A program made the position numbers and the translations under genes. A DNA stretch of 64,000 nt from Gammaproteobacteria bacterium (lineage in GTDB: Bacteria > Pseudomonadota > Gammaproteobacteria > Steroidobacterales > Steroidobacteraceae): the NCBI GenBank assembly GCA_028293765.1, contig JAQGOG010000150.1:1-64000 (forward strand), given 5' to 3'. Shown in pieces: positions 27,581 to 57,326 of this stretch (the stretch's first letter is position 1; the number at the start of each line of letters is the position of its first letter). Under the pieces are notes generated by a model, which had not been told where the DNA came from, did not search any database, and saw only the letters and a list, made by a program, of their open reading frames with translations.

Positions 27581-27604
27581 TTGGGTCTCCTCAAGACTCG
27601 TCGC

Positions 27605-30016
27605 TTAACCACGCATCCGACTGCCGTTGGGATCGAAAGCCGCGGCGGCCTGACGCTCGGCCTTGCGGCGCTCACCGATGATCTCGATCTCGAAACCGAC
27701 ACTCGCATCGGCAAGGGCTGCCGGAATGTAGCCCAGTGCGAGCGAGCGTTGCACGCTGTGGCCGTACGCGCCGGAGGTCACCCAGCCGACGACCTTGCCG
27801 TCGTGCCAGATGGGCTCGTCGCCGATGGCATCGGTATCCCCAGCCTCTACCGCGAATGCGGTGAGCCGTAGCGCGCCGCCTCCTTCCTTCTCTTCAATCG
27901 CAGCCGAGCGGCCGATGAAATCACCCTTGTTCAGATCGACGAAGCGTCCGAGACCCGCCTCGTACGGACCGTAGATCGGACGGTATTCCCGTGCCCAGGT
28001 GCCGAAGCTTTTTTCGATTCGCAGGGTATTCAGGGCGCGGGCACCGAAGGGCTTCATGCCGTGCGGGCGCCCCGCCGTGACGAGGAGGTCGTAGAGTGCA
28101 CGCTGATAGTCGGTGGTCACCCAGATCTCATAGCCGAGATCGCCGGTGAAGGAGATGCGGCCGACCAGCGCGGGGACCATGCCGATGTCCATTCGTTTGA
28201 ACGCCAGGAACGGGAATGCCTCGCGCGACAAATCCTCGCGCACCAGACTCTGCAGCAGGGCGCGCGACCCTGGTCCGGCGACGGACAATCCCACATACTC
28301 CATCGCGCAGGGGCGTAACGAGACGCCGGATGGTGGCAGGTGCCGCTCGAACCAACGAAGGTAATAGGTTTCCGCGGCATAGGTGCCGATGAGGAAGACG
28401 CGATCTCGCGCCACACGGCACATGGTGAAGTCGCCAATGAGCTTGCCTCGCCCATTCAGCATCGGGGTCAAGGCAATGCGCCCGACGTTCGGCACACGGT
28501 TCGCCATCATGCGCGACAGCCACTCCTCCGTGCCGGGTCCCGAGATCTCAAATTTTCCGTAGTTGGAGATTTCCAGTAGACCAACTGCATCGCGCACCGT
28601 CTTGCACTCGGCCGCGACGTACGGGTGCGCGCTCGAGCGGCGAAACGTGACGTCCTCCTGTGCTTGCGCGGCGGTCGGCGCAAACCATAGCGGGTATTCC
28701 AGTCCGCAATAGTCGCCAAACACCGCGTGCTCACTTTGCAGCCGATCGTAGATCGGTGTAGTGCGTAACGGACGGGCCGCAGGAAGCTCCTCGTTGGGGA
28801 AGCGGATACGGAAGCGGCGGGAGTAATTCTCGCGCACCTTGGCGTTGGTGTAGGCGAGTGTCGTCCAGTCGCCGTAACGCGAAACGTCCATGCCCCAGAC
28901 GTCAGCGCCCGGATCGCCGTCGACCATCCAATGGGACAGCGCGAGACCCACACCGCCTCCCTGGCTGAACCCTGCCATGACGCCGCAGGCGACCCAGAAG
29001 TTGCGCAGTCCCTTCACGGGCCCCACGAGCGGATTGCCATCCGGCGCGAAGGTGAAGGGACCGTTGACGACCTTCCTGATTCCGACCTCGCCCAGCGCCG
29101 GGAAATGTTCGAAGCCTACCTCGAGACTCGGCGCAATCCGTTCCAGGTCGTTCGGCAGCAGATTCTGCCCAAAATCCCAGGGCGTGGAGACCTCGGACCA
29201 GGGCACGCCGGCACGCTCGTAAGTGCCCATGAGCATGCCGCCCCGCTCTTCGCGTAGATAGATCTCGCCCTCGAAGTCGATGCAATGAAGCTGCTCTTTC
29301 TGAGCTTTCAGCGCGGGAATTTCCTCCGTGATGAGGTACTGATGCTCCATGGCCAGGACCGGCAACTCGAGGCCCACCATTCGACCGACTTCGCGCGCCC
29401 ACAGGCCGCCCGCATTCACGACATGCTCGGCGTGCACGTTGCCGTGATCGGTGATGACATCCCATGATCCATCACTGCGCGGTTTGAGGTCGACGACGCG
29501 CGTATGCCGCACGATCTCGGCACCGCCGATCTGCGCCGATTTCGCGTAGGCGTGGGTGACGCCGTATGGATCGACGTGGCCCTCGATAGGATCGAACATG
29601 GCGCCGACAAAGTGTTTCTTCTCCATCAGCGGAAACAGCTTCGCCGCTTCCTCGACCGAGATGATCTCGAGGTCCATGCCGAGATAGCGGCCGCGCGCTT
29701 GCGCCATCCTCAGCCAGTCGAGCCGCTCACGAGTGCCGGCTAGCATGATGCCTCCCGTGATGTGCACTCCGCAGGACTGCCCTGAGATCCGCTCGATCTC
29801 CTCGTACAACTTGATCGTGTACTGCTGCAGTTTGGCGATGTTGGGGTCACCATTGACGGTGTGCATGCCTCCGGCAGCGTGCCAGGTGGAACCCGAAGTC
29901 AACTCCTCGCGCTCGATCAACAGCACGTCACTCCAACCGGCCTTCGTCAGGTGATAAAGAACACTGGCGCCCACGACTCCGCCGCCAATCACCACGACTC
30001 GCGCAGCGCTCTTCAT
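27605..30016 (-). CDS. Dimethylglycine dehydrogenase-like FAD/folate oxidoreductase
   Basis: An 803-residue two-part protein: an N-terminal DAO-type FAD domain (VVVIGGGVVGASVLYHL at residues 7-23, the SGSTWHAAGG segment with a His that may hold FAD covalently) and a C-terminal aminomethyltransferase (GcvT-like) folate domain from about residue 430. This is the dimethylglycine/sarcosine dehydrogenase layout. It demethylates dimethylglycine to sarcosine, passing the one-carbon unit to tetrahydrofolate. GGAGAAG precedes the ATG. It sits between a GcvA-type LysR gene (36 bp upstream) and BHMT, consistent with betaine breakdown. Close relatives use other N-methyl amino acids. Confidence 0.87.
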   Translation of the reverse strand: MKSAARVVVIGGGVVGASVLYHLTKAGWSDVLLIEREELTSGSTWHAAGGMHTVNGDPNIAKLQQYTIKLYEEIERISGQSCGVHITGGIMLAGTRERLDWLRMAQARGRYLGMDLEIISVEEAAKLFPLMEKKHFVGAMFDPIEGHVDPYGVTHAYAKSAQIGGAEIVRHTRVVDLKPRSDGSWDVITDHGNVHAEHVVNAGGLWAREVGRMVGLELPVLAMEHQYLITEEIPALKAQKEQLHCIDFEGEIYLREERGGMLMGTYERAGVPWSEVSTPWDFGQNLLPNDLERIAPSLEVGFEHFPALGEVGIRKVVNGPFTFAPDGNPLVGPVKGLRNFWVACGVMAGFSQGGGVGLALSHWMVDGDPGADVWGMDVSRYGDWTTLAYTNAKVRENYSRRFRIRFPNEELPAARPLRTTPIYDRLQSEHAVFGDYCGLEYPLWFAPTAAQAQEDVTFRRSSAHPYVAAECKTVRDAVGLLEISNYGKFEISGPGTEEWLSRMMANRVPNVGRIALTPMLNGRGKLIGDFTMCRVARDRVFLIGTYAAETYYLRWFERHLPPSGVSLRPCAMEYVGLSVAGPGSRALLQSLVREDLSREAFPFLAFKRMDIGMVPALVGRISFTGDLGYEIWVTTDYQRALYDLLVTAGRPHGMKPFGARALNTLRIEKSFGTWAREYRPIYGPYEAGLGRFVDLNKGDFIGRSAAIEEKEGGGALRLTAFAVEAGDTDAIGDEPIWHDGKVVGWVTSGAYGHSVQRSLALGYIPAALADASVGFEIEIIGERRKAERQAAAAFDPNGSRMRG

Positions 30017-30052
30017 GGCTTCTTCTCCGGACCGCGGCAGCCGCCCGACGCT

Positions 30053-31021: not shown

Positions 31022-31216
31022 AGACAGGTTCCTGGAGCCGCGCGCGGTGACCTCGCTTGTCGATACTAGACCCTAGCCTCACGCCAAGGCGACCCCCGAT
31101 TCCAATGCCTTTTTTCGATGTAGCTAATCAATTTCTCGGCTTGGACGCCGCGGTCGATTATGAAACCCTGACAGGCGCCGCATGCAGACCGATTCTTCCC
31201 CCGAGCGCCAAGCCTC
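31022..31216. promoter_or_regulatory. Divergent control region between LysR and aldehyde dehydrogenase genes
   Basis: This 195-bp gap separates the LysR-DMGDH-BHMT operon from the aldehyde dehydrogenase/enolase operon and must hold both promoters. A CTAG-ACC-CTAG repeat lies at 31066-31076, 45 bp before the LysR start, and an AT-rich stretch is at about 31110-31135. No confident -35/-10 pair was found. The repeat as a LysR site is only a suggestion. Confidence 0.35.
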
Positions 31217-32722: not shown

Positions 32723-32743
32723 GCGCACGCTTGCGAGGAACCC

Positions 32744-33904: not shown

Positions 33905-35257
33905 TCAGCTGCCGGCAGGCGCCACTGCTGGCGCTCTGTCGCTCAGGAACGGGATGGCCGCCAGAGCAACGAGCGCAGCAAGCATGACATACCATGCGGG
34001 AGCAAATACCGAACCACCCGGCCGCCGCGTGAACCACGTGAGGATCATGGGCGCGAATCCGCCGAATATCGTGAACGCGCCGTTGTAAACGAGCGACGTC
34101 CCGGTCGAACGGACGCCGGTGGGAAAGATCTCGGCCAACCCGGCCGGCGCAACGCCGACGAAGCTGGCCACCAGCACGCAGAAGGCGGTCATGACGCCTA
34201 TCAGGACCCCAGTGCTCGGAAAGGCCCGTAACAACATGAACAGCGGCAGGACGCACACCAACAGCGCCAGGGCGCTGAGCGTCAGCAGCCTGCGCCTGCC
34301 GATTCGATCGGACGCCGCGCCGAATGCAACACAGCCAGCGACGAACGCAACGTTGGCGACGAGAGATGCACCGAACGCCTGGCGTGCAGTGAAGCCAAAC
34401 GTAATCTGCACGTAAACCGGCACGTAAACGATCAGAACGTAGACCGCAACGGCCCACAGAACGGCGACGCCAAAACCGACTAGCAGCTCGCGGCGGTGGT
34501 TCGTGAACGTCTCAAGCAATGGCGACTTCCTGGTCGGGCTGTCCCGGCGGCGTCGCTCGACCTCGGCTTCGAAACTCTGCGTCTCGTGTAGCGTCCGGCG
34601 CAGAAACAAACCCGCCGGCAGGATGAGGAGCCCGAAAAGGAAGGGAATCCGCCAGCCCCACGCCTCGACCGAGCTGGGCGGCAAAAACGTCGTGACCGAA
34701 AAAGCGGCCAAGGCGCCTAGAATGTTCGACATTCCCATGCTCGCCTCGAGCCACGACGTCACCACACCGCGGTGTTGCGGAGCTGCGTTTTCCAGGAGGA
34801 AGGCCGTCGCTCCCCCTACTTCGCCGCCGGCCGAAAAACCCTGTAGTACGCGGCCGAACAGCAGCAGCAACGGAGCCCCGATACCGATCGTCGCGTAGGC
34901 GGGAGCGAGAGCGATCGTGCCGGTTCCCGCCGCCATGAGCAGGATGGTCAATGTGAGAGCCGCCTTCCTCCCGGCCCGATCGCCGTAGTTCCCGATGAGG
35001 ACCGCGCCGATCGGCCGAACGACGAACCCGAGCCCGAAAGCCAGAAACGCCTTGAGCAGATTGAGCGACTGATCCTCGCCCGGGAAGAAATTTCTGGCGA
35101 CATACGCGGCGAACAGCGCGTACACAGTGAAGTCGTACCATTCGAGCATGTTGCCGACGGACGCTGCAACGATAGCGCGGGTCTTTCCCGCCAGCATCGC
35201 CGTAGGCGCCCCCTCGAGCGCTGCAGGCGCCGTTAGAGACTCTTCGCGCAGCGTCAC
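33905..35257 (-). CDS. MHS-family (ProP/KgtP-type) MFS symporter
   Basis: A 450-residue, 12-helix carrier of the metabolite:H+ symporter family. Visible signatures are SVGNMLEWYDFTVYALFA in helix 1, RPIGAVLIGNYGDRAGRKAA between helices 2 and 3, and GRVLQGFSAGGEVGG. Family members import proline, betaine, ectoine, dicarboxylates and similar zwitterions or anions. It is the last gene of the eight-gene minus-strand operon, 27 bp after the desaturase-like gene, and probably brings the final breakdown product into the cytoplasm. The start is uncertain: GTG at 35257 fits the operon spacing, and an in-frame ATG at 35197 is an alternative. Confidence 0.87.
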   Translation of the reverse strand: MTLREESLTAPAALEGAPTAMLAGKTRAIVAASVGNMLEWYDFTVYALFAAYVARNFFPGEDQSLNLLKAFLAFGLGFVVRPIGAVLIGNYGDRAGRKAALTLTILLMAAGTGTIALAPAYATIGIGAPLLLLFGRVLQGFSAGGEVGGATAFLLENAAPQHRGVVTSWLEASMGMSNILGALAAFSVTTFLPPSSVEAWGWRIPFLFGLLILPAGLFLRRTLHETQSFEAEVERRRRDSPTRKSPLLETFTNHRRELLVGFGVAVLWAVAVYVLIVYVPVYVQITFGFTARQAFGASLVANVAFVAGCVAFGAASDRIGRRRLLTLSALALLVCVLPLFMLLRAFPSTGVLIGVMTAFCVLVASFVGVAPAGLAEIFPTGVRSTGTSLVYNGAFTIFGGFAPMILTWFTRRPGGSVFAPAWYVMLAALVALAAIPFLSDRAPAVAPAGS

Positions 35258-35284: not shown

Positions 35285-36187
35285 CTAGAGCGTCGGATGC
35301 ACGGGACTGAAGACAGGGACCAGAAAGTAGTCTCTGGCCAATACGCCATAGCCGGGAAACACGAAGTGACCGTTGCCTTCGAGCAGCTCATGTTTGTTCT
35401 CGCGGTAATAGCGGGGAATGTCGTACCAAGGCATGGCCGGCTGCAAGTGGTGCGCGACGTGCAAGTTGTTATACAAGAACAACAGTCCGAAGACCGCGTT
35501 TGATTCGACCGATGCCGTGCGCTGCGGGTGGACCGGCGCCGCGCGATGCTCGGTGAATGCCCGCAACAGTCCGAGGCTCATGCCCGGGTACGCGACCAGC
35601 AGGACGTATTGCCACCACGGGAATGCACAAACACCCGCGATGAACCAGAAGAGCCCGCCAACAGCCACGACATGCACGCCCCAATGCGGCAGATGGCTGC
35701 GATCACCGTTCCAGGCCCGGACAAACTCCCGGATCGCTAGAATCCGTAGCCGCAGCAGCGGCCCGAGCACGAGACGGCCGACGAGCGTCTGGTTGAATAT
35801 CAGCACACGACGTTGGAAGGCGCCCATCCGCGCCCAGTCGGCCTGCCTGACGTAATAGGATTCGGTGTCGACCCCCGGGACCGTGAGATCAGGGTCGCGG
35901 TGGTGCGTGCGGTGGCTCTTGCGATACAGCGGAAACGGAAACCACAGTCCCAGCGGCGGAAACACGACCGCGAAGCTCAGCCAGCGCGGCACCCCTCTAA
36001 ACGAGTGGATGGCCTCGTGTTGCAGCGAAAAATGCCACGCGGTCAGGTACGCGCCAACTACCAGGATCACCCACCACGGCAGCAGTGCGTGATACCACAC
36101 CAGCGCGAACCAGGCCGAATAGAGGACGATCGCCACGAGCCACGTGGGTCCGTCGACCTGCCGAAATTTCCGTGCCAGGGATTCCAT
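35285..36187 (-). CDS. Fatty-acid-desaturase-fold membrane di-iron enzyme
   Basis: A 300-residue integral membrane protein with the three His boxes of the desaturase/hydroxylase family: HEAIHSFRG (about residue 56), KSHRTHHRD (about 90) and NLHVAHHLQ near the C-terminus, with at least four membrane segments. Members desaturate or hydroxylate lipids, carotenoids or small molecules using O2 and a ferredoxin-type donor. I chose the ATG at 36187, preceded by a GAGGGCGGGGG stretch; the open frame extends 24 codons upstream. Its place between PhnD-like and MHS symporter genes, with no lipid genes nearby, suggests oxidation of a small imported compound rather than fatty-acid desaturation. That is inference. 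Confidence 0.85.
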   Translation of the reverse strand: MESLARKFRQVDGPTWLVAIVLYSAWFALVWYHALLPWWVILVVGAYLTAWHFSLQHEAIHSFRGVPRWLSFAVVFPPLGLWFPFPLYRKSHRTHHRDPDLTVPGVDTESYYVRQADWARMGAFQRRVLIFNQTLVGRLVLGPLLRLRILAIREFVRAWNGDRSHLPHWGVHVVAVGGLFWFIAGVCAFPWWQYVLLVAYPGMSLGLLRAFTEHRAAPVHPQRTASVESNAVFGLLFLYNNLHVAHHLQPAMPWYDIPRYYRENKHELLEGNGHFVFPGYGVLARDYFLVPVFSPVHPTL

Positions 36188-36200
36188 GGGGCCCCCGCCC

Positions 36201-37058
36201 TCAGACCGGTGAAAGACCGGGCGAAAGAGCGGCGAATACGGGATGCGCGACGGCGGCAAACGGGCGTTCGCGCCAGTAGGCGGTTACCGCATCGAAGCGC
36301 TCCCGCAGGAGGCCATAGGATGCCGGATCGGGGCGCACGAACCGTTCCAGTTCCAGACTCTGCAACAGGGGTTTCATGGAGAGGTTGTTATGCGCTTCCA
36401 AGAACGTTGTTTCAAGGGAGTGCGGCCCGGGCCGGGTTGCCACGATGGGCGGAATCGCCGTCGGGGCGGTTTGAGCGACCACACGCACTCGGGACGTCAA
36501 CTCCGGGCGGTACTTGCGGAGCAGGCGCAAGGCGAAGGAATCTATCGGCGCCACGTCTGCCAAGCCATCGGCTACGGCAGTCAGCGCTCGTAACGGTGTG
36601 ACCTGCGGAGCGATCACCTCCTTGTAGAGCGGCCGCTGCGCCGCCGCCCGCAGAGAGGAAGCCTCCATCAAGTAATACAGGGCTGCGACGCAGCCGGATT
36701 GGGAATCGGGCGTCGTGAATGCCATCCGGCCGCCAAACGTCTCCTCCAGCACCTGAAAGCTGCTATCCGCGCGGACGACGAACTCGCTCCAGTAGCGCGG
36801 CTGGCCGCCGAATTCGGGCGGCGCCGGCACGGGTGCCGCTATGAGCGCCGGCCGGGGCTCGGAGCGTGCAAACGGCAATCCGCACATGAAAACCGCGCCC
36901 AGGTCCTGTCTGCGCCACAGCTCGCCGATAGGCATCGGTTCGGGATGATCGACGACGGTCAGGGCCATCGCCGCCTGCGCCGCGGCAGCATCCAGCAGCT
37001 GCCGCCAAAGCTCGGCGACGGCTGGCGTGACGCAGTACATGCGGGCGTTCGCGATCAT
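36201..37058 (-). CDS. PhnD-like solute-binding protein without signal peptide
   Basis: A 285-residue protein of the phosphate/phosphonate ABC substrate-binding (PhnD-like) type, with GGRMAFTTPDSQSGCVAALY typical of the family's ligand-binding core and VAPIDSFALRLLRKYRPEL in the second lobe. No Sec or lipoprotein signal precedes the domain (NARMYCVTPAVAELWRQLL), so it appears cytoplasmic, and no ABC permease or ATPase genes are nearby. The ATG overlaps the stop of the secreted lyase homologue (ATGA). It may bind or sense a pathway compound rather than serve an ABC importer. Function unresolved. Confidence 0.75.
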   Translation of the reverse strand: MIANARMYCVTPAVAELWRQLLDAAAAQAAMALTVVDHPEPMPIGELWRRQDLGAVFMCGLPFARSEPRPALIAAPVPAPPEFGGQPRYWSEFVVRADSSFQVLEETFGGRMAFTTPDSQSGCVAALYYLMEASSLRAAAQRPLYKEVIAPQVTPLRALTAVADGLADVAPIDSFALRLLRKYRPELTSRVRVVAQTAPTAIPPIVATRPGPHSLETTFLEAHNNLSMKPLLQSLELERFVRPDPASYGLLRERFDAVTAYWRERPFAAVAHPVFAALSPGLSPV

Positions 37059-38893
37059 CTGTCGCTGGCGTGCGAACGCTGGGCGTTCCGGTCACTGCCG
37101 TTGCCGGGTTCACTGCCATCGCTCACATAGAAGCTTCTCACGGAATGGCTGCGGATGAATGTGGCGGCGAGCTCATGTATGGGGCGCGTCGAGTTGGGAT
37201 CGGCGCCCTCCTTGAATGGCAAGGTATCGCGGAAGGCCAGCCACACCGCGGTTGTAACAGGCCCGAAGCTGCGCGCCGGACTCTGCGCCTTGCGCATATC
37301 GAGCCAGTAACAGCCGCTCAACAGGTCTTCGGACAACAGCTCGATCGTGTCGTCGGTAGCAAGGCGCGCCCGCGTGACCTTCAGACGCGTCTGCGACTGC
37401 AGATCCTCTACTGACTGGATCAGAGCATTGCCCTCCGGCGCGACCGGAACGGCCAATCCTTGGATTTCCTGCATCAGAGATGACGCGGCCAGGCCGCTCC
37501 CCTGCGCGCTACCAAAGCGTCCGGGCTCCCCGTCAACATACTCCTTCGGCGGGATGCCGGTAAAAAACGTGTTGCTGAAGCGGTTGATCCGCTGCGCAAC
37601 GGCGGCATCCATGTTGGCAAGCGCAATGGTAAACGCCTCGATGTCGTTGGCCAGCGGATAAGGGTCCCAGTTGGCATCGGACAGAATGAAACCGTGCAGG
37701 CCGTGGCTGCGCGGACCACCCTTCACGTAGAATTGCCGCATTTGCGGCGTGTCCAGCTCCCACGAGTCGCTGGGAGAGGCGCCGAGTCTGACCGCGGGAT
37801 TATGGTCCGATGAGTTGATCTGCAGCAGCAGGCCGTCCCGCAGCTGCGCCCAGGACTGCCACGCCGAGCCGGTCCGGATGGACGAAGCGCGCAGGCTTTC
37901 GGGATCCTGGATGATCCGGCTCGGATCGTCGTCGAACAGGTAACTCCCCCTGAGCATGTCGAGAATGCGCGCAGCGTTCCAGTTCAGCCACTTGAAGGGC
38001 CTGTTGGCCTGCACGGGCGTCGACAGCGGCGTGAGGCTGCTGTTCATGCCGTTCAGGTCAATCGCGTAGATGAGATCGGACCAGGCGAGCGCGTAACGGG
38101 CGTCGTTGACGAGGAGCGCCGTCTGGCCGGTCGAATAAGCGTTCGAACTCTCCAGCGCGCTGTCATCGGCCGCGAACGGCGCAAGCGGTTTGAGTCCGGC
38201 GCGCGCGAGCGCCGCCGCGGCCGCAACGCGCTCGCCGTTGTAGTACGCCTCGCCCGCTCCGACCATAATGGCCGCGACGTTGGTGAGCGGCCCCAGATCG
38301 CCTTCGCCGACCGTGCCTCGCGATTGCACCACCGGGGTGATCCGGTCATTGAGCAAGTCCAGCAGCATTTGCGTGAGCGGGGGGCTGGCCGCCTCATAGG
38401 TCATCGTGTTCGCGCGAATGACCAGCATGGCGCGGACGATCTCCTCATCGCTAATTTCGGGACCCACGCCCGCACGAGCGCCCCGCCGAAAGATCGCCAG
38501 CTGTCGCTCCTCCAGCGCAGCCTTGTTTTCGGGCGCCAGCGCATCGCCGGCGAAAATGACCTTTTGGCGGCCAGCGCCGGAGCCGCGATTGAACCAGTAA
38601 ACGGGCACGCCTTCCGCGGCCGCTTCGAGCAGCAGGCCGTAGGCATCCGCCGAGCGCTGCCGCGCCTCCGGGCTGAGAGCGACCTTCGCACCGAACCGCG
38701 CGACCTCGATAACCTGTTCTATCGTCAAGTCGTGTCCCGTCAGCACGATCGTCTTCTGCGCGAGACTGGGTGTAATCGCGTTGTAAGGCACGGGCGCTGC
38801 CGCGGCAGATGTGCCGGCCAACATCGCAATAGTTGCACACAACGCGGCCCACGGCCGTTGCCTGCGTACGATCGACTGTGCGCTGCGGGTCAT
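37055..38893 (-). CDS. Secreted histidine/aromatic ammonia-lyase homologue lacking the MIO triad
   Basis: A 612-residue protein with an N-terminal Sec signal (RRQRPWAALCATIAMLAGTSA, cleavage near AAAAP) and a HAL/PAL-superfamily body. The region that forms the MIO cofactor in true ammonia-lyases (GSVGASGDLAPL) reads GTVGEGDLGPL at residues 193-203: one residue shorter, with Ala-Ser-Gly replaced by Glu-Gly. The active-site Tyr of the QDPYSLR motif is Glu in QDPESLR (329-335); a Tyr equivalent to Tyr53 remains (VYWFNRGSG, Tyr99). It should therefore not work by the MIO route. A MIO-free elimination from a quaternary-ammonium substrate, as in ergothionase, is one possibility. It overlaps its neighbours on both sides by 4 bp, so it is firmly within the operon. 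Confidence 0.82.
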   Translation of the reverse strand: MTRSAQSIVRRQRPWAALCATIAMLAGTSAAAAPVPYNAITPSLAQKTIVLTGHDLTIEQVIEVARFGAKVALSPEARQRSADAYGLLLEAAAEGVPVYWFNRGSGAGRQKVIFAGDALAPENKAALEERQLAIFRRGARAGVGPEISDEEIVRAMLVIRANTMTYEAASPPLTQMLLDLLNDRITPVVQSRGTVGEGDLGPLTNVAAIMVGAGEAYYNGERVAAAAALARAGLKPLAPFAADDSALESSNAYSTGQTALLVNDARYALAWSDLIYAIDLNGMNSSLTPLSTPVQANRPFKWLNWNAARILDMLRGSYLFDDDPSRIIQDPESLRASSIRTGSAWQSWAQLRDGLLLQINSSDHNPAVRLGASPSDSWELDTPQMRQFYVKGGPRSHGLHGFILSDANWDPYPLANDIEAFTIALANMDAAVAQRINRFSNTFFTGIPPKEYVDGEPGRFGSAQGSGLAASSLMQEIQGLAVPVAPEGNALIQSVEDLQSQTRLKVTRARLATDDTIELLSEDLLSGCYWLDMRKAQSPARSFGPVTTAVWLAFRDTLPFKEGADPNSTRPIHELAATFIRSHSVRSFYVSDGSEPGNGSDRNAQRSHASDR

Positions 38894-39879
38894 GGCGTCG
38901 AGTCGAGGAAGCGATTGACGACCTCCGCCACCCCCCGCGGGTCCTCCCAGAAAGGATTGTGGCCGAGGCCGGCGAAGACTTTCACCTTGGCGGCGGGTAA
39001 TGCCTCACGCAACGTCTGGCGACCCTCTTCCTCCATGATCGGATCCGCACTGCCCCAGATGAGCAGTACCGGTGCAGTCAGGCGCGGCAGACCGCGCTGC
39101 AGGTCATCGAAGCGCGTACCCTGATCGAGAACCGCAAGCCACACCGTGAGCGGAATCGCAGCGGAGTCACGGCGCTGGCGCCGGATGAAATCGGGATCTA
39201 CAGGCGTCGGCGAGTCCCACCAGGCGATCATGAAAGGCGAATCCGGGTCGATCGGCTCATGGAGCTTACGGATCTCGGCTGCGTAATCGAACGCCGGTTT
39301 CTTCGCCGGCGCGCACGGCCGCGGACCGCCCGTCGAGGAGATGAGTACGACGCGTCCCGTGCGCTCCGGCCACTCCTCCGCGAACGCCTGCGTGATGAAG
39401 CTGCCCAGTGAATGCCCGACAATATCGGCCTTCGCGATGTGCAGCGAGTCGAGCAGCAGCTTGATGTCGTAAGCGAAGTCGATACGCGTGTAACAGCACT
39501 CGGGCTTGGCGGATTGACCGTGACCCCGGATGTCGACCAGGATGAGCCTATCCTGCTTTGACAGATACGGCACGAGCGGGACCCAGTCGCGCGCGTTGTC
39601 GGTGTAGCCGTGAATGAGAACCACCGGGCGGCCGTCCGGCCTGCCCATGTCGATGTAGGCAAGCAGCTGGCCGTTCGGCAGCAGGGTCGTCTTCTTCAGT
39701 GCGTCGAACTGGTTTAGGTCGATCTTGAGAGGGGGTGGCGCGTGCAGGGGTGCATTCGCGGCGGCACTACCGACAGCGGCAGCGCAAAGGAAGACAATCA
39801 ACGCGAGGCCCCGACGACCGGCCGCGGAGCGAAGTGCGGCCGCCTCAGGGCAACCGCGGAAAGCGTGCCATACCTTCAA
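38890..39879 (-). CDS. Secreted alpha/beta hydrolase
   Basis: An alpha/beta-hydrolase-fold protein of 329 residues when started at the TTG at 39879. I prefer this start because AGGAG lies 10 bp upstream inside the end of the sulfatase gene, and because it gives an n-region with Arg residues and a hydrophobic segment (GLALIVFLCAAAVGSAAA), a plausible signal peptide. The fold shows LIHGYTDNARDW (oxyanion), VDIRGHGQS, nucleophile elbow GHSLGS, acid in IWGSADPIM and His in GLGHNPFW. It would hydrolyse an ester or amide in the periplasm. Its stop overlaps the start of the lyase homologue. Confidence 0.85.
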   Translation of the reverse strand: MKVWHAFRGCPEAAALRSAAGRRGLALIVFLCAAAVGSAAANAPLHAPPPLKIDLNQFDALKKTTLLPNGQLLAYIDMGRPDGRPVVLIHGYTDNARDWVPLVPYLSKQDRLILVDIRGHGQSAKPECCYTRIDFAYDIKLLLDSLHIAKADIVGHSLGSFITQAFAEEWPERTGRVVLISSTGGPRPCAPAKKPAFDYAAEIRKLHEPIDPDSPFMIAWWDSPTPVDPDFIRRQRRDSAAIPLTVWLAVLDQGTRFDDLQRGLPRLTAPVLLIWGSADPIMEEEGRQTLREALPAAKVKVFAGLGHNPFWEDPRGVAEVVNRFLDSTP

Positions 39880-41362
39880 GATCGTTGAGCTCCTGGTCGT
39901 TGCGGATATACAGGCGGCTGGCGTCACGGATCGGCTGGAAGTCCCACGGCCGATGGCGGCCCTGCCGAAGCGCCCCATAGACGAAATGACGCCGCTGCTG
40001 ACTAGCTAGAACCTCTTCGTGCAGCGACGGCAGCGTCCAACGCCGCGCGACCTCCGCTCGATACTCTGCCACGAGCGCCGCGTGGCCCGCGTTCGCAGCG
40101 AGGTTCACCCGCTCGTCGGGGTCGCAAGAGAGGTCATAAAGTTGGTCGGGATCGACTGGCGAATGCACGAACTTGTAGCGCGACCGACGGATCATGACAA
40201 TCGGCGCGATGGCACCCTCCGCCAGATACTCGCCGATCGCTTCGTCGTGCCCCGCGCCGCTCTCGAGTGCGGGCAGCAGGCTTCGGCCGCCAATCGGTGC
40301 CGCATACGCCGGCGGCGCACCGTGATGGGCGAGCTCCGCGAACGTCGGCAGCAGATCCAGAAGCGACGCCGATCCCGACACGCGGCGCGGCGCGAACCGC
40401 CCGGGCGCATGCACGATGAGCGGGATCCGGCAGGCGGCCTCGAAGAAGCTCATCTTGTACCAGAGACCGCGCTCGCCGAGCATGTCGCCGTGGTCGGCGA
40501 GCACCACGACGACGGTGTTGGAATGCAGTGCGGCCTGCTGCAGGGTCGCTACTAGCGAGCCGATCTGGTCATCGACATACGACACGGCGCCGTAATACGC
40601 CCGGCGTGCCGAGCGCACCTGCGACTCGGTTGGACGCACGAGCCCGAGGCCGATGACGTGACGAAGTCGACTCGAATGGGGGTCTTCGCTGCCGGCAAGG
40701 TCACCCACGCGCGGCATGTCGATCTCATCGTCACGATAGCGATTCCAGTAGGCATCGGGAATGACATAGGGGTCGTGAGGATGCGTCATCGACACGACGA
40801 GGCAGAACGGGCGGCGATCCCTGCCGCGCGCGATGTCGAAAAGTTTCTGGCGCGCGGCGGCGACCACCTCGTCGTCGAAATCGATCTGATTCGTGCGCGT
40901 ACACGCGCCGGATTGTGTGACCGAATCCATCGTGTGGTACCAGCCGGGACGCTCGTCGAAGCGCGTCCAGTCCGGGGTCCAGCCAAAATCGGCCGGGTAG
41001 ATGTCGGTCGTCAGCCGCTCCTCGAACCCGTGCAACTGGTCCGGCCCGCAGAAGTGCATCTTGCCGCTCAGCGCCGTCTGATAGCCGGCAGCGCGCAGGT
41101 AGTGAGCGAAGGTCGGCACCTGCGCAGGGAACTCGGCCGCGTTATCGTAGGCGCCGATCTTCGAGGGCAACTGCCCTGCCATGAATGAAAACCGTGACGG
41201 CGCGCACAGAGGGCTGTTGCAGTAAAACGAATCGAACACGACGCCCTCCTCCGCCAACGCGTCGATGTGCGGCGTGCGGGCAACCGAGCCGCCATAGGCC
41301 CGCAGCGCGCGCGCGGTCAACTGATCGGCCATCAGGATCAGCAGGTTTGGGCGGTCAGTCAT
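39845..41362 (-). CDS. betC: Choline-sulfatase-like arylsulfatase-family enzyme
   Basis: A 505-residue sulfatase closely resembling BetC choline-O-sulfatase (about 512 residues in Sinorhizobium) as I remember it: NLLILMADQLTARALR, the formylglycine motif PLCAPSRFSFMAGQLPS (Cys53), TALSGKMHFCGPDQLHGFEE, RLTTDIYPADFGWTPDW and LADHGDMLGERGLWYKMSFF. BetC hydrolyses choline-O-sulfate to choline and sulfate in the cytoplasm; no signal peptide is seen. I chose the ATG at 41362; the longer open frame upstream lacks family similarity and overlaps the neighbouring gene. It is the third gene of the minus-strand operon. A related sulfate ester could be the true substrate. Confidence 0.88.
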   Translation of the reverse strand: MTDRPNLLILMADQLTARALRAYGGSVARTPHIDALAEEGVVFDSFYCNSPLCAPSRFSFMAGQLPSKIGAYDNAAEFPAQVPTFAHYLRAAGYQTALSGKMHFCGPDQLHGFEERLTTDIYPADFGWTPDWTRFDERPGWYHTMDSVTQSGACTRTNQIDFDDEVVAAARQKLFDIARGRDRRPFCLVVSMTHPHDPYVIPDAYWNRYRDDEIDMPRVGDLAGSEDPHSSRLRHVIGLGLVRPTESQVRSARRAYYGAVSYVDDQIGSLVATLQQAALHSNTVVVVLADHGDMLGERGLWYKMSFFEAACRIPLIVHAPGRFAPRRVSGSASLLDLLPTFAELAHHGAPPAYAAPIGGRSLLPALESGAGHDEAIGEYLAEGAIAPIVMIRRSRYKFVHSPVDPDQLYDLSCDPDERVNLAANAGHAALVAEYRAEVARRWTLPSLHEEVLASQQRRHFVYGALRQGRHRPWDFQPIRDASRLYIRNDQELNDLEGMARFPRLP

Positions 41363-41384
41363 CCGATCTCCGTGTCGTTGCGGC

Positions 41385-43421
41385 TCAGCGGCTCGCGGCC
41401 AGCGCCGCCGCGAGCGGACCCAGCCAGGGCTCGAAGTGGCGCCATTGATCCAGTCCTTCCTTGAAGATGGGCCGCCGCACCTGCTCCGAGCTCGCGGTGC
41501 GCACGCTGCGCTCGGTCTTGTAGAACTCCACGCACTGCGGCTCGAAGTCCAGGCCGCAGAACTCCAGCAGCCGCCGGACATTGCCCTCGAGATCGGCTAC
41601 GACGGCCTCGTGCTGCACTCGCAGGATCCTGCCGGGAAGCACCGCGTCCCAGTGGTCCATCAGAGTCACGTAGCTGCGGTAATACCGGCCGATGTCTTCG
41701 AGGCTGTACGTGAATTCCTGGCCGTTGGCGAACAGCTGTTTGAAGTTGCTGAAACAGCAGGCCATGGGTTCGCGGCGCGCGTCGATGATCTTCGCGTTGG
41801 GCAGGATGAGGTGGATCAGCCCGAGGTGCCGGAAATTGTTCGGCATCTTGTCGATGAAGAACGGTTTGCCGGTGCGGTACACCTGTGTATCGGCGAGGTA
41901 TTTCTCGCCGAACCGCTGGAACTGCTCCGCGGTGAGCTCGCTCAGCACCGCGGGATAGCGCGGCTGCGCGTCGTTCGGCTCGCGACCCTGCAGCTGCTGC
42001 ACGCGCCGCGGGATATCCGCCAGCTCCATCGTGCCTTCCACTTGCGAGTGCGAAGCCAGGATCTGCTCGATGAGCGTCGAGCCGGCTCGCGGCAGTCCGA
42101 CGATGAAAATAGCATCGGGCCGACTGCAGCCGAAGCCGCTGCGCTCTGCGAAAAACTCACGCGTGCCGACGGACGCCTGCAGTCGCGCATTGCGCTCAAT
42201 CAACTCCGGCCGATAACGGATCTCGCCCTTCTTGAGCAGGTTGCCCCGCTCGTAGTAGCGGAAAGACTCGGCGTATTCGCCCCGGTCCTCGAAAGCCTTG
42301 CCGAGGGCGAAACACAGGTGATACCGGTCGACCAGCGCGGTCGACGCCGCGATCTCCTCGGCGCGCATCCGCCCTATTTCCGCGTCCGCGAAGCGATACG
42401 TCTTGAGGTTCGCGAGACTCCAGTAAGCGTCCCCGAAGCTCGGACGAGCCGCTGCGGCGGCTCGATATGAGTCGATCGCGTCCGACTGCCGCCCCAGTGT
42501 CTTTAGCGCGTGCGCGATCGACAGATGGAGGTCTTCCTTGGCGGGCGTCTCAGCCAGCAGTTCGTGGAAAATCCGCAGCGCAGCTTCGTGATCCCCAAGC
42601 CCAACATAGGCATTGCCGAGGATGGTACGAAAGGCCCGATTGTCCGGCTCGATGGCGCGCAGCTTGCGGATTTCTTCGATCGCCTGCTGGTGCTTGTGCC
42701 GTTTCGACAGCACGACGGCATATTCGTAGCGCGCGGCGTGATAATCCTCGGCAAACACCAGCACACTCTCGAGCAGAAACTCGGCGTCGTCGAGGATGTC
42801 GAGCTTCATCCCGATCTGTGCAAGCAGCCGCATCGCTTCGATGTGGTCGCCGTGCTGTTGGAGAAACTGTCGCACCAGGCTTTCCGCCGCGTGCGTCTCG
42901 CCCTCCGCGAAGAGACTCGTGGCGGTAACGATCGCCGTCGGCAGAGTTGCCACGTGCTTCGCGAAGCGGTCGGCAGAGTCAGCCTCCGCGTGCCGGCCGG
43001 CGGCCCGGCATAGATCGGCCAATCCTCTCCAGCTCGCCGGGAGCGCTCCATTCAAGGACACAGCGCGCTGATAGGCTTCGATCGCTGCCGCTGGCCGGCC
43101 CACCGCCCGCAAACAATGGCCGCGCTCCTGGTACAGGCGGCCGTAATCCGGATGCACCTGCTCGAAGCGAGCCAGCGTGGCGAGCGCGTCGGCCATGCGA
43201 CCGAGGTAGCGCTGACTGACGGCGGTCAGGTAAAGAACATCCCGGTTCTCGGGAACTTGCGTAAGGAGCGCCTCGGCTGCCGCGAGGGACGCGGCGAATT
43301 GACGCTCTTTCAGCAGTTCCCGGGTGCGAAGCACCTGCGCCTCGATAGGGGATACGGACGGATTCGGTTCCGCTTGAGCCACCCTCGGTAATCGTGATGC
43401 CACTGGGGCCTGCTGCGCCAC
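41385..43421 (-). CDS. TPR-repeat sulfotransferase-family protein
   Basis: A 678-residue protein with about eight N-terminal tetratricopeptide repeats (residues about 30-370; for example DVLYLTAVSQRYLGRMADAL) and a C-terminal sulfotransferase domain. The PAPS-binding loop reads FIVGLPRAGSTLIEQILAS (about residue 442) and a second conserved block is RTGKPFFIDKMPNNFRHLG. This resembles tyrosylprotein-sulfotransferase-like bacterial proteins that often sit beside TonB receptors. No signal peptide is seen. The start is GTG at 43421 with GGGGA 9 bp upstream. It lies 40 bp after the TonB receptor and 22 bp before the sulfatase. It may modify or recognise a sulfated substrate; function is uncertain. 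Confidence 0.85.
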   Translation of the reverse strand: MAQQAPVASRLPRVAQAEPNPSVSPIEAQVLRTRELLKERQFAASLAAAEALLTQVPENRDVLYLTAVSQRYLGRMADALATLARFEQVHPDYGRLYQERGHCLRAVGRPAAAIEAYQRAVSLNGALPASWRGLADLCRAAGRHAEADSADRFAKHVATLPTAIVTATSLFAEGETHAAESLVRQFLQQHGDHIEAMRLLAQIGMKLDILDDAEFLLESVLVFAEDYHAARYEYAVVLSKRHKHQQAIEEIRKLRAIEPDNRAFRTILGNAYVGLGDHEAALRIFHELLAETPAKEDLHLSIAHALKTLGRQSDAIDSYRAAAAARPSFGDAYWSLANLKTYRFADAEIGRMRAEEIAASTALVDRYHLCFALGKAFEDRGEYAESFRYYERGNLLKKGEIRYRPELIERNARLQASVGTREFFAERSGFGCSRPDAIFIVGLPRAGSTLIEQILASHSQVEGTMELADIPRRVQQLQGREPNDAQPRYPAVLSELTAEQFQRFGEKYLADTQVYRTGKPFFIDKMPNNFRHLGLIHLILPNAKIIDARREPMACCFSNFKQLFANGQEFTYSLEDIGRYYRSYVTLMDHWDAVLPGRILRVQHEAVVADLEGNVRRLLEFCGLDFEPQCVEFYKTERSVRTASSEQVRRPIFKEGLDQWRHFEPWLGPLAAALAASR

Positions 43422-43461: not shown

Positions 43462-46137
43462 CTACTTTTCCTGGAACCTGTACCCGAACTGCAGGCTCAC
43501 CGTCCTGGGACGGGTGATGGTATTCATCTTGACGAACTGGTTGTAGTTCGAAAACAGATCGCCGCGTACATCGGTGAGGTTCGACGCATACAGCTGCACG
43601 TTCCACGCGTCCTTCGACACACCGACGGATGCATCGTACGTGGTGAAACCCGGCTGGTCATAACGCGTCGGCGTAACCTGATCGACTTCGGTTTGTATGC
43701 CGTCGGTCGTCGACCAAGAGTGCGCCCGATGCGTGGCGGCAACCTGCAGGAACGTCTGATAGTCGGCAACGACAGGAAAGTCGTACCGGGCGCGCACATT
43801 CGCCTGAAAGGGAGGCGATTGCGCGAGCGGATCGTTCTTCGTTCCGAACGGGTTGCCGTACGGAGTCCCGTTCGGCTTGAGAACCTGTGACCAGTTGATG
43901 GGGTGGCCGTTGACGTCGTTGAGCGAGACTTCCTTGTACAGCCAGCTGTGGTTCCATGACGCCGCAGCGGTCAGCGTCAGTCCGCGAGTCACGCGGCCCA
44001 CGATCTCGGTCTCGAGGCCCTTGACGTGATATTGGGGCCCATTCGTCGAAAACGTCAGATTGCCCAGCAGGCCCGGGTTGAAGAGCCCGATCTGCACATC
44101 CTTCCAATCCTCGTAGTACACCGCGCCGTTGAACTGAATACGATGATCCACCCATTCGGTCTTCCAGCCGATCTCGTTGTTGACCAGAGTGTCCGGCTGG
44201 AATCCGATCGGAGTCTGGAAGGTTTTCACCAACGGCGAAGTGGCGGGTGCCACGAACCCCGAAGCGCGGTTGAAGCCACCGGGACGGAAGCCCTGCGACC
44301 ATGTGTAGTACACCAGCGCGTCCCTGGTCACCTTCCAGCTCAGATTGACGCGACTGCGGAAGCCCGTGTAGCGCTTGCTGAGACCCACCGACGAGTCGGA
44401 GTACGCACTGTTTCCGGCAGGCACTTTCAACGTATTGAGATTCGTGCCGCCGACGCAGGGATCAGCGGTCGTGGCAGGCGTGCTCGCCCCTTCGTAGATG
44501 CCACCCGGGCGGCAGCCAAAACTGCCTTGCACCACCCCGGTTTGGAAAGTGTCCATCCGGTAATAGCGCGTACCCACGGTCGCGGTCAGTGTCTTGGGAA
44601 TGATTTCGAAGTCGGTCGATGCGAACGCCGCCTTCTGGGAATAGCCACGCGTGACATCGTCGTAGAAGGCATCGCCCGGATTGCGCACATTGGGATTGTT
44701 CGCGGTCCCGCCCGCTACCGGTTGCAGCGGCGCAAAGCCGGTTTCCGGGGCCCTGTAGAACCAGTCCGACTCGTTGTGAATGCCGAACTGTTCCCAGAAC
44801 AGACCGCCGATCGCGCGCCACCGCCAGTCATCGGGGGTGCTCAAGCGGAACTCGTGACTCTGGTGCCTGTTCACCTCATGCACTTTGTACGTCGAAGCCG
44901 GCGAAAAACACTGTCCAGGGCTATTCGTGGTCTTGACGTTCTTGCCCGTGACGGGGTCCTTTGCAAAGGGTGATCCCGGCAGGTTGCATTGATAGTAGTC
45001 CGCATACACGCCGCGCGCGTAGTTGGTGTAATCGGCGACCTGATCGACCGTACGGACCAGATAGCCGCCCGTATAGACAGCCTTGAGCTGCCCGATCCGG
45101 CCACTGAGCGTCCACGCCGTGTTGGTGAATTTGTCCTTGTCGATGTTGGGCTGGAAGAGCGTCACGGATAGCGGGGGCAACGCCTGCCCGTCCGAGCCGT
45201 TCGGCATCTCCGCGAAGACGCCGTCCGCTTCCATGTTCTGATACGACTGTGTGACGAGGGCGTTCCAGTCGTCGTTGATCTCCCAGAGAACCGAGGCGCG
45301 AATCCCCTTGTATGTCACGGGGTTGATGTTGCTGCCGGCAAACTTGTCGTTATTGATCACGTTGCTGGGCGGCACTACGCCATTGAAATATCCCTGGATG
45401 CCACGATCGCTCGGCAAGCGGGTGAAGGTGCTGGCAACGTTGTCGATGTAGCCGCCGCGCGACTCGTTATAGATCACTGCGCGCGCCGCGAGCTTGTCAC
45501 GAATCAGCGGAAGGTTGAGGGTCGCGTCGAGGTTGCTGCTCGGATCACCGTGAGCAGTGGTTCCGTAGCCGGCGTTGAAATTCGCCTCGGTGGTGTTGAG
45601 CTTCGGCTTGTTCGTGATATAGCGAATCACGCCCGCCTGCGCCCCGGCGCCAAACAGCGTCCCTTGCGGGCCTTCGAGCACTTCGACGCGCTCGAGATCC
45701 GCCGCGTAGATGTCGAGATTGCGGCCCGGCAGCTGCGCGGACTGTTCATCCAGATAGACCGCGACGTTGGGAAAGCTACCCGTGGCGCCCGTGGACTGGT
45801 TGCCGTCTTCGGTGGTGGCGAGACCGCGCATGTAGATCTGGCTCTGGCCCGGGCCGTGACTGGCCGCGGACACGTTCGGCAGGAACTTCAAATAGTCTTC
45901 GAAGGTTGTGATGTTCAGCTGCGTCAGCGTTTCGCTGGTCAGCGCGGTGATCATGATCGGAACGTTCTGCGCGCTCTCCTCACGGCGCTGCGCCGTCACG
46001 ATGACTTCGTTGATCCCCATGCCCGTCGTATCCGACGCGGCCGTGTCGCTCCCGGCAGGAGCCGCGGCACTGGCGGCGCCGGCGTGCGCGCCCAGGATGG
46101 CGGCGACCGCGCAAGACACTTTCTGGTTCGCTTTCAA
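43462..46137 (-). CDS. TonB-dependent receptor, first gene of the eight-gene operon
   Basis: An 891-residue outer-membrane receptor: signal peptide (KANQKVSCAVAAILGAHAG), TonB-box-like INEVIVTAQRREESAQNVP, plug with VEVLEGPQGTLFGAGAQAG, and a large barrel ending in VSLQFGYRFQEK (terminal aromatic next to charged residues). It starts with TTG at 46137; the excellent GGAGAG site 4 bp upstream makes this start convincing. It heads a tight minus-strand operon reaching to 33905, so its ligand is probably the substrate of the sulfatase, hydrolase, lyase-like and desaturase-like enzymes encoded there. The ligand is unknown; a sulfated or quaternary-ammonium natural product is plausible. Confidence 0.92.
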   Translation of the reverse strand: MKANQKVSCAVAAILGAHAGAASAAAPAGSDTAASDTTGMGINEVIVTAQRREESAQNVPIMITALTSETLTQLNITTFEDYLKFLPNVSAASHGPGQSQIYMRGLATTEDGNQSTGATGSFPNVAVYLDEQSAQLPGRNLDIYAADLERVEVLEGPQGTLFGAGAQAGVIRYITNKPKLNTTEANFNAGYGTTAHGDPSSNLDATLNLPLIRDKLAARAVIYNESRGGYIDNVASTFTRLPSDRGIQGYFNGVVPPSNVINNDKFAGSNINPVTYKGIRASVLWEINDDWNALVTQSYQNMEADGVFAEMPNGSDGQALPPLSVTLFQPNIDKDKFTNTAWTLSGRIGQLKAVYTGGYLVRTVDQVADYTNYARGVYADYYQCNLPGSPFAKDPVTGKNVKTTNSPGQCFSPASTYKVHEVNRHQSHEFRLSTPDDWRWRAIGGLFWEQFGIHNESDWFYRAPETGFAPLQPVAGGTANNPNVRNPGDAFYDDVTRGYSQKAAFASTDFEIIPKTLTATVGTRYYRMDTFQTGVVQGSFGCRPGGIYEGASTPATTADPCVGGTNLNTLKVPAGNSAYSDSSVGLSKRYTGFRSRVNLSWKVTRDALVYYTWSQGFRPGGFNRASGFVAPATSPLVKTFQTPIGFQPDTLVNNEIGWKTEWVDHRIQFNGAVYYEDWKDVQIGLFNPGLLGNLTFSTNGPQYHVKGLETEIVGRVTRGLTLTAAASWNHSWLYKEVSLNDVNGHPINWSQVLKPNGTPYGNPFGTKNDPLAQSPPFQANVRARYDFPVVADYQTFLQVAATHRAHSWSTTDGIQTEVDQVTPTRYDQPGFTTYDASVGVSKDAWNVQLYASNLTDVRGDLFSNYNQFVKMNTITRPRTVSLQFGYRFQEK

Positions 46138-46525: not shown

Positions 46526-48034
46526 CTACGGATAAACAGCAGGAGGATCGGAGCCCCGGATGAGATCCACCGCGGCAGCAATGTCGGCTGCCAGCGGCCG
46601 GTCATCGGCGTATGGCGGCAGCCGCTCGCGCACTATGCGGTAGGCGCGGTCGGTTGCCGGAGCACGGCGCAGCGAGGGATCCTGGAAGTCGTAGGCCTGG
46701 GCCGCCGCGAGAAGCTCGATGGCGAGCACCGTTGAGAAGTTCTCGATGATCTCTATCGCCTTGAGGGCGCTCGCGGTCGCGTGCGGGATTTCATCCTCCT
46801 GCAGCGCTGAGCTCACCCCGCCGTCCAGACTCGACGGCGCCGCCAGGCGGCGATTTTCCGAAGTCAGGGCTAACGCGGTGTATTGAGCGATCATGAGACC
46901 GGACGAGACGCCGGGCCGCTGCGCAAGAAAGGCCGGCAACCCGCTGACGAGCGGATTCACCAGCCGATCGATGCGACGCTCGCAAGTTGCGGCAATCTTG
47001 GCAGCCGCTATCCCCAGGGTGTCCATCGCGAGGGCGAGCGCAGTGCCGATCGGGTGCGCCTGCGAATACACGACGGGATCCTTCAGGGTGCCCGACACGA
47101 TCGGATTGTCCGTCACCGAGGCGAGCTCCCGATCGAGAACGGACTGCGTCGACTCGAGACACTCGCGTACGGCGCCGTGGACCTGCGGAACGGCCCGCAG
47201 ACTCATGGCGTCCTGTGTATGGTGGACGGCGCGTTTCAGGATCTCGCTGCCCTCGAGCAGCTTCACCATCCGCGCTCCGGTCGAGGCAATTCCCTCGGAC
47301 ACCCGGAATTTCAAGGCCTCGGACGCGAATGAAACTGGTTGCAGGCCAATATTCTCGAATGTCATGGCCGCGATCACATCGGCCCAGTCGAGCAGATGAT
47401 GCATCCTGCGCAGCGCCACGCACGCCGGGCCGGTGCTGCAGGGGGTGCCGTTGACGAGGCTGAGACCCTCTTTCGCCTCCAGCTCCAGTGCGGCAACGCC
47501 GAGCCGCCGCAGCGCCTGCGCGCCCGTCATGACGCCCTCGCCAGCATCCACCGACCCGCCGCCCATCAGAACCAGGGAAACGTGCGCCATATGGGTGAGG
47601 TAGCCGATCGAGCCGGAACGGGGCACGATGGGGATGAGATCCTCATTCAGCAGGGCGACCAGGGTCTCGACTACAACCGGACGCACACCGGAACCCCCAT
47701 GTGCGAAGTTATTCACCGCACTGGCCATGATCGCCCGCGTCTCGGGCACCGGCAGCGCACGGCCGACACCGCAGGCGTGACTCATGATGATATTCCGCGA
47801 CAGCAGACGCTGCCGGGGCTCGTCGATGAGCACGTTGGCCAGGGCTCCCACGCCGGTGTTGACCCCATAACAGACCATCCGCCGCTCGGCGATGACGCCT
47901 ACCAGGGCTCTGGCATGCGCGATGCGTGCGAGCGCCGCCGCTGACAGCGACACCCGCGCCCCTGCCGCGATGTCCGCAACACCTTGCCAGGTCAGCGGCG
48001 CGCCTATAACTTGGTCCGTCATGACAATGTCCAT
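46526..48034 (-). CDS. Histidine ammonia-lyase-like protein lacking the MIO triad (cytoplasmic)
   Basis: A 502-residue protein aligning along its whole length with HutH as I recall it: CYGVNTGVG (Tyr56, equivalent to Tyr53), IMSHACGVG, LSLVNGTPCS (Asn195), SGLMIAQYTALALTSENR and ALQEDEIPHA (Glu413). But the MIO-forming GSVGASGDLAPLAH reads GSIGYLTHMAH (141-151), three residues shorter with no Ala-Ser-Gly, and QDPYSLR reads QDAMSLR (Met277 for the catalytic Tyr). It cannot form MIO in the usual way. No signal peptide. It is divergent from an MFS carrier. Candidate function: a MIO-independent elimination such as a trimethylammonia-lyase. The start is unclear (ATG 48034 or 48022; TTG 48043). Confidence 0.82.
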   Translation of the reverse strand: MDIVMTDQVIGAPLTWQGVADIAAGARVSLSAAALARIAHARALVGVIAERRMVCYGVNTGVGALANVLIDEPRQRLLSRNIIMSHACGVGRALPVPETRAIMASAVNNFAHGGSGVRPVVVETLVALLNEDLIPIVPRSGSIGYLTHMAHVSLVLMGGGSVDAGEGVMTGAQALRRLGVAALELEAKEGLSLVNGTPCSTGPACVALRRMHHLLDWADVIAAMTFENIGLQPVSFASEALKFRVSEGIASTGARMVKLLEGSEILKRAVHHTQDAMSLRAVPQVHGAVRECLESTQSVLDRELASVTDNPIVSGTLKDPVVYSQAHPIGTALALAMDTLGIAAAKIAATCERRIDRLVNPLVSGLPAFLAQRPGVSSGLMIAQYTALALTSENRRLAAPSSLDGGVSSALQEDEIPHATASALKAIEIIENFSTVLAIELLAAAQAYDFQDPSLRRAPATDRAYRIVRERLPPYADDRPLAADIAAAVDLIRGSDPPAVYP

Positions 48035-48070
48035 AATCTCCAACGTGTCGGCAGAAGTCTAGAACGACAC

Positions 48071-54248: not shown

Positions 54249-54263
54249 GCTGTCGATCCCTGT

Positions 54264-54536: not shown

Positions 54537-54541
54537 GGGTA

Positions 54542-57307: not shown

Positions 57308-57326
57308 TGCTGTCAGCTGGGTACCG

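Follow-up and report, generated by a model that had tools for sequence, protein, structure and literature searches.

The window, a 64,000-nucleotide stretch of contig JAQGOG010000150.1 from a soil gammaproteobacterium of the Steroidobacteraceae, encodes a 612-residue aromatic-lyase-fold protein (37055..38893, minus strand; hereafter the window lyase) that is a real, conserved and exported variant of the ergothionase-like lyase type, which lacks the cofactor 4-methylideneimidazole-5-one (MIO). Profile, fold match and tree assign it to the ergothionase-like (GEGD) group. The chemistry of the GEGD motif is already known in outline; what sets the protein apart is its predicted location and the clade to which it belongs.

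The reading frame is intact, beginning with an ATG at 38893, and stops are present in the plus strand. The PF00221 profile covers residues 56-555 (profile positions 1-465 of 466; E 6.1e-95; 319 bits against a cut-off of 27.3), a full-length match that places the protein in the aromatic amino acid lyase superfamily and bears out the earlier note, which had described a fold of the histidine or phenylalanine ammonia-lyase (HAL/PAL) type behind a general secretory (Sec) signal peptide. Where the MIO-forming GSVGASGDLAPL is expected, the window lyase has GTVGEGDLGPL (residues 193-203; 38285..38317, minus strand; RGTVGEGDLGP on re-translation), which is one residue shorter and contains GE-GD rather than the Ala-Ser-Gly (ASG) triad. 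A second motif, QDPESLR (residues 329-335; 37889..37909, minus strand), retains Gln and Arg in the alignment but carries Glu332 at the position of HAL Tyr280, which is Tyr in 10/10 HAL rows. Both motifs, including the missing catalytic Tyr, had been reported before and are confirmed; the nucleotides previously given for the first (38305-38340) overlap only in part with its true place, 38317..38285. Against the hutH equivalog model TIGR01225 (NCBIfam) the protein reaches 165.6 bits, below the cut-off of 539, and this score together with the motif rules out identity as a canonical HAL. For the HAL catalytic residue numbers used here, support comes only from the titles of mutant entries (Y280F, F329A/G and D145A).

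The best match of the window lyase, by sequence and by fold alike, is the ergothionase of Treponema denticola (6s7j/6s7q). Ergothionase (EC 4.3.1.27) removes trimethylamine from a histidine betaine. The T. denticola enzyme shares the HAL/PAL fold, has a GEGD loop (SIGEGDI) replacing ASG and a QDP-x-S-x-R motif without the Tyr (QDPLSFR), and retains the active-site Tyr, Gln, Arg and Glu; the window lyase likewise has equivalents of HAL Tyr53, Gln277, Arg283 and Glu414. The two differ in that identity is 26% over the fold match and Ser-His is retained in the HAL His83 region of the ergothionase, and the ergothionase group has Phe at the Phe329 position and Leu or Ile at the Tyr280 position. HAL Asn195 is not clearly retained, Ser-x-Asn standing at that place in the ergothionase-like group. 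In PMC13405746, ergothionase is described as lacking MIO and as active, releasing trimethylamine. The statement of the earlier note that known lyases of this family are cytoplasmic and use MIO is not supported by the nearest solved relative, and its view of the motif as new chemistry gives way to the presence of GEGD in that same enzyme. MIO-dependent HALs (P. putida 1b8f and kin) are alike in fold but possess the ASG triad and Tyr280, whereas the window lyase has neither and adds an export signal. A MIO-dependent HAL is also encoded in the same genome, on contig C13.

A second group of relatives, with members in Sinorhizobium meliloti pSymA, Burkholderia, Wolinella and Campylobacter, forms what we call the second exported clade; its sources label it histidine ammonia-lyase or HAL/PAL/TAL family (TAL, tyrosine ammonia-lyase), among other names. 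Like the window lyase, these proteins mostly have a predicted signal peptide, and their loop is mostly GE-AD. They are only about 33% identical to it, have QDPLS(F/Y/L)R and Phe329, and carry mostly Ala at position 198 and Gln at position 197 in 13/120.

Conservation was counted over the 120 best matches to each of three queries, the window lyase, the S. meliloti pSymA relative (second exported clade) and part of the ergothionase, a sample in which near relatives are favored. Homologs of the window lyase numbered 2983 at E <= 1e-10 among 8000 scored candidates, distant relatives included. In its closest homologs, Tyr99, Gly196, Glu197, Asp199, Gln329, Glu332, Arg335, Trp409, Glu496 and Asp497 are each conserved in 120/120. 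The invariance of both new Glu residues, which the earlier note had put forward as a check, therefore holds at this range, but the two sites differ in meaning. Glu197 is a signature of the whole group (120/120 in the window-lyase clade, 106/120 in the second exported clade, 118/120 in ergothionases); the exceptions are Gln (13) and His (1) in the second exported clade and Gln (1) and Ala (1) in ergothionases. Glu332 is specific to the window-lyase clade, being replaced by Leu in 120/120 of the second exported clade and by Leu (118) or Ile (2) in the 120 ergothionases. Among 12 more distant rows of the window-lyase clade, 11 have Glu at position 332 and one, from Paracoccus aminophilus, has Ile; at position 496, 11 have Glu and one has Ala. 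The ASG triad is absent from all 43 non-HAL rows of the main tree, none of which has Tyr at the Tyr280 position, while 10/10 HAL rows have both; this paired absence would fit enzymes that have ceased to act on free amino groups. The gene is not decaying: the ratio of nonsynonymous to synonymous substitution rates (dN/dS) against four relatives is 0.137, 0.088, 0.145 and 0.164, with dS 0.59 for the first pair and 1.3-1.5, near saturation, for the other three.

The N-terminus, MTRSAQSIVRRQRPWAALCATIAMLAGTSAAAAP, is a Sec signal peptide both by reading and by a crude, home-made rule that was run with controls (about residues 1-33, cleavage site approximate; 38795..38893, minus strand). The rule accepts 103/120 of the closest homologs and 102/120 of the second exported clade but 0/120 of the ergothionase relatives, and all four HALs tried (L002, L028hutH, L030 and L031) are negative. 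When sequences were started at residue 100 as a control, it accepted 0/120 of the window-lyase clade and gave 19/120 false positives in the second exported clade; it also misfired on the second lyase of the window (below), which is leaderless by eye. At further loci of the window-lyase clade, 15/19 proteins are rule-positive; the negatives are L005, L013, L022 and L023, and some rule-negative N-termini resemble signal peptides or have an uncertain start codon. Export is not universal, because two proteins have leaderless starts: the clade member of Rhizobium ruizarguesonis (L023) and the relative from Polaromonas (L024). Judged from these N-termini, predicted export is an unusual feature of the window lyase relative to ergothionases.

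For the main tree we selected 53 rows and excluded the motif columns. In this tree, the window-lyase clade (17 rows), the second exported clade (12 rows so labeled, Polaromonas included) and the ergothionases (9 rows) form one group of 38 rows with support 100/100, a single well-supported MIO-less GE-[GA]D assemblage that includes ergothionase. The ergothionases (100/99) branch first within it, leaving the window-lyase clade, the second exported clade and Polaromonas together (99/95). The leaderless Polaromonas protein, although labeled as second exported clade, is placed beside the window-lyase clade. The window lyase does not fall inside the T. denticola-type ergothionase clade but in a separate clade beside the second exported clade. 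A topology joining the window-lyase clade to the ergothionases, with the second exported clade outside, was weakly rejected by the approximately unbiased (AU) test (p 0.0435), the hypothesis having been chosen after inspection of the tree. We did not adopt the label of simple ergothionase, given the separate clade and the rule-predicted signal peptide.

The genes around the window lyase are tightly packed into one run, since it shares ATGA overlaps with both neighbors. In order, all on the minus strand, the run encodes a TonB-dependent receptor (43462..46137), a tetratricopeptide repeat (TPR)-sulfotransferase protein (41385..43421), a choline-sulfatase (39845..41581; TIGR03417, 788 bits, cut-off 433; true start likely Met74, CAPSR motif present), an alpha/beta hydrolase that, by eye, begins with a hydrophobic leader (38890..39978, overlapping the lyase start), the lyase, a PhnD-like protein (36201..37058; PF12974, overlapping the lyase stop), a membrane protein of the fatty acid desaturase family (35285..36259; PF00487) and a major facilitator superfamily (MFS) metabolite:H+ symporter of 2A0106 type (33905..35257; 376.5 bits, NCBIfam cut-off 443). 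The PhnD-like protein has a periplasmic-binding fold, no signal peptide by eye and no adjoining ATP-binding cassette (ABC) transporter genes; a role as enzyme or sensor in the cytoplasm is possible.

To either side, 26483-33871 and 51297-58952 look like a catabolic island leading from choline-sulfate, choline and betaine to glycine, with several of its genes scoring below NCBIfam cut-offs. Its genes include a homocysteine methyltransferase-like gene, an aldehyde dehydrogenase (ALDH) gene, a dimethylglycine/sarcosine dehydrogenase (DMGDH)-type flavoprotein gene (27605..30016, minus strand; DAO, FAO_M and GCV_T domains), SoxA- and SoxB-type sarcosine oxidase genes (51297-54248, 1110 bits, cut-off 1164; 54542-55792, 673 bits, cut-off 529; both minus strand) and, on the plus strand at 56012..58952, a match to the glycine betaine monooxygenase GbcA model (381 bits, cut-off 670) with a choline-dehydrogenase-like enzyme (569 bits, cut-off 605).

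Several of these partners recur elsewhere. Window-lyase-clade genes were found at 23 loci (the window, L004-L021, L022, L023, L072 and L073), of which 18 have enough flank to judge; L004, L010, L015, L020 and L021 were left out of the TonB count because of contig ends. A TonB receptor lies upstream on the same strand in 13/18 (the window, L005, L006, L007, L009, L011, L012, L013, L016, L017, L018, L019 and L073) and is lacking there in the other five judgeable loci (L008, L014, L022, L023 and L072). Receptors were called by Pfam for the window, L016, L018 and L019 and by BLAST grouping elsewhere, with L072 judged by BLAST and open reading frame size. A PhnD-like gene is present in six loci (the window, L004, L007, L008, L012 and L018) and a desaturase gene in four (the window, L008, L012 and L018); the Polaromonas locus L024 also has a PhnD-like protein, at 34% identity.

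Genes for methylated-amine metabolism recur as well, with a background count for few of these families, among them the DMGDH type (PF16350): choline-sulfatase (L004), choline-dehydrogenase-like (L005), GbcA-, BHMT- and DMGDH-like (L006), SoxA-like (L007 and L010), DMGDH-like (L012) and haem-dependent N-demethylase-like (L016, with a homolog in L013). DMGDH-type genes number 2 in the 6.6 Mb of the genome that holds the window and 1-9 in five relatives, and in three cases (the window, G005 and G045) one is less than 10 kb from the lyase. Chance is an unlikely explanation for this proximity, because PF16350 genes are so few per genome, although the three cases, through common ancestry, do not count as independent. 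The contigs with a window-lyase-clade lyase in G033, G039 and G059, some of them short, have no PF16350 match.

From the predicted fold, motif, conservation, clade, rule-based export signal and gene neighborhood, we infer a leaving group, a substrate, residue roles and a periplasmic site of action. The window lyase is probably an exported, periplasmic MIO-less lyase whose reaction splits trimethylamine, or a different tertiary amine, from an aromatic betaine. The TonB receptor would import the substrate, perhaps an aromatic or imidazole betaine, through the outer membrane into the periplasm. There, Tyr99 would act as the base that removes the beta-proton and Arg335 would bind the carboxylate; the quaternary ammonium would then depart as trimethylamine or another tertiary amine, leaving an aryl- or heteroaryl-acrylate. 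MIO would be dispensable, since a quaternary ammonium group leaves readily by itself and is unable to form the covalent MIO adduct. Glu197, at the place of MIO, and Glu496, joined in the window-lyase clade by Glu332, may form an anionic pocket around the cation, and the symporter and the cytoplasmic enzymes of the operon would serve in uptake and use of the products. The trimethylammonium compounds proposed earlier as substrates were a good guess. Of the two products, the acrylate may be the one of use, because the genome showed no PF11927 match and one weak match of flavin-containing monooxygenase (FMO) type, and so no clear trimethylamine-oxidizing enzyme in the two families tried. It does encode one urocanase and one UbiD, both on other contigs.

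A minor but real possibility is that the same fold performs MIO-less elimination on a different leaving group or substrate class, such as a choline ester or a sulfated or bulky quaternary compound that is imported through TonB and processed with the neighboring esterase and sulfatase. The adjoining alpha/beta hydrolase and choline-sulfatase and the TonB receptor as usual partner would suit such a substrate, as would the features that set the protein apart from ergothionase, namely clade-specific Glu332, Trp409 and a rewritten His83 region; yet a choline-sulfatase like that of the window occurs only in L004 among L001-L021, and the retained Tyr, Gln, Arg and Glu are those of alpha-amino-acid lyases. 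The conservation of these same four residues (Tyr99, Gln329, Arg335 and Glu496) also makes it improbable that the protein is a non-catalytic periplasmic receptor or chaperone built on the lyase fold. Loss of MIO and Tyr280 would be expected to end canonical ammonia-lyase activity, and a TonB partner is compatible with binding, but PMC13405746 describes an ergothionase with the same loop as active.

We consider it very unlikely that the protein releases ammonia from common amino acids while the new Glu residues, as the earlier note had thought possible, serve as acid and base in place of MIO. Both residues are conserved in the window-lyase clade, but the sister clades and one member of the clade itself lack Glu332, and Glu197 is common to ergothionase, which releases trimethylamine. 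A cation pocket formed by Glu197, Glu496 and Glu332 is the more likely role. A decaying paralog, which the earlier note had named as the finding that would overturn its reading, can be dismissed on the intact frame, dN/dS of 0.09-0.16, invariant motifs and abundance of homologs.

Extending the elimination of tertiary amines beyond the window, we tentatively suggest that a large, as yet unrecognized family of periplasmic, cofactor-less C-N lyases, often TonB-coupled, may exist in Gram-negative bacteria and remove tertiary amines from quaternary-ammonium natural products by means of a Glu197/Glu332/Glu496 three-carboxylate pocket. If so, soils would hold a so far unknown route by which aromatic betaines of plants or fungi yield trimethylamine and arylacrylates, and trimethylamine lyases would be wider and more diverse than the enzymes for choline, carnitine and, in the cytoplasm, ergothioneine. 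Among the papers listed from an open-access library, in some cases a small share of those matched, none dealt, by its title or the beginning of its abstract, with an exported or periplasmic member, which does not prove absence. The source names "histidine ammonia-lyase" and "aromatic amino acid (ammonia-)lyase" given to homologs of the window lyase are very likely wrong, because the cofactor triad is absent and most carry an export signal.

A second MIO-less lyase is encoded about 8 kb away (46526..48043, minus strand; profile, sequence and tree) and belongs to a separate GS[VI]GYLTH family, with GSIGYLTH in the window copy and no leader by eye. In the best tree it falls on the side of the HALs, in agreement with the earlier claim that the two lyases are different branches, and a quick tree of 116 rows likewise set HALs and the second window lyase apart from the three clades. 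Independent loss of the triad, one of the two options in the earlier note, is what the best tree shows, but the AU test does not reject a single loss common to both (p 0.147). GS[VI]GYLTH proteins (Rhizobium, Agrobacterium, Sinorhizobium and Burkholderia) resemble the window lyase in missing both the MIO triad and Tyr280; they differ in their loop, their tree position and the lack of a visible leader. The family (L066-L069) is conserved and annotated as histidine ammonia-lyase, with QDPLSLR (QDAMSLR in the window copy). In one of the four named members examined, on a Rhizobium daejeonense plasmid (L066, 4062-7500), PhnD-like, fatty acid desaturase and GYLTH lyase genes lie together, at 27% and 41% identity to the window partners. 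The same PhnD-like and desaturase pair beside both lyases suggests that the GEGD and GYLTH families serve related pathways. In Agrobacterium (L068), the GYLTH lyase stands beside a glycine-betaine ABC transporter, urocanate hydratase and an S/N-oxide reductase, a gene set reminiscent of an ergothioneine-sulfonate pathway.

The window-lyase clade is a patchy accessory trait. Strong matches (E <= 1e-100) occur in 5/58 genomes of the genus, this one included, in 1/3 others of the family and in 0/38 of the order, and a phylum-wide draw gave 2/398 genomes at E <= 1e-60, again including this one. Members also occur in Acetobacteraceae and in a metagenome-assembled genome of Candidatus Eremiobacteria.

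At least two lyases of the family are present per locus in L007, L013, L018, L020 and L073, as same-strand neighbors in L013, L018, L020 and L073. In Komagataeibacter europaeus (L019, 9971-16410), the exported GEGD lyase is followed by a LysR gene and then a further lyase without ASG (GSIGAADLAPL), which adjoins genes for a PF02441 flavoprotein and UbiD in what looks like an acrylate-decarboxylating route. The second-exported-clade lyase of S. meliloti pSymA (L025, 7929-16605) lies near an annotated dimethylsulfoniopropionate lyase gene and an ABC transporter, and that of P. saliphilus (L028) stands beside hutH, hutU, hutI, hutG and an arylsulfatase gene.
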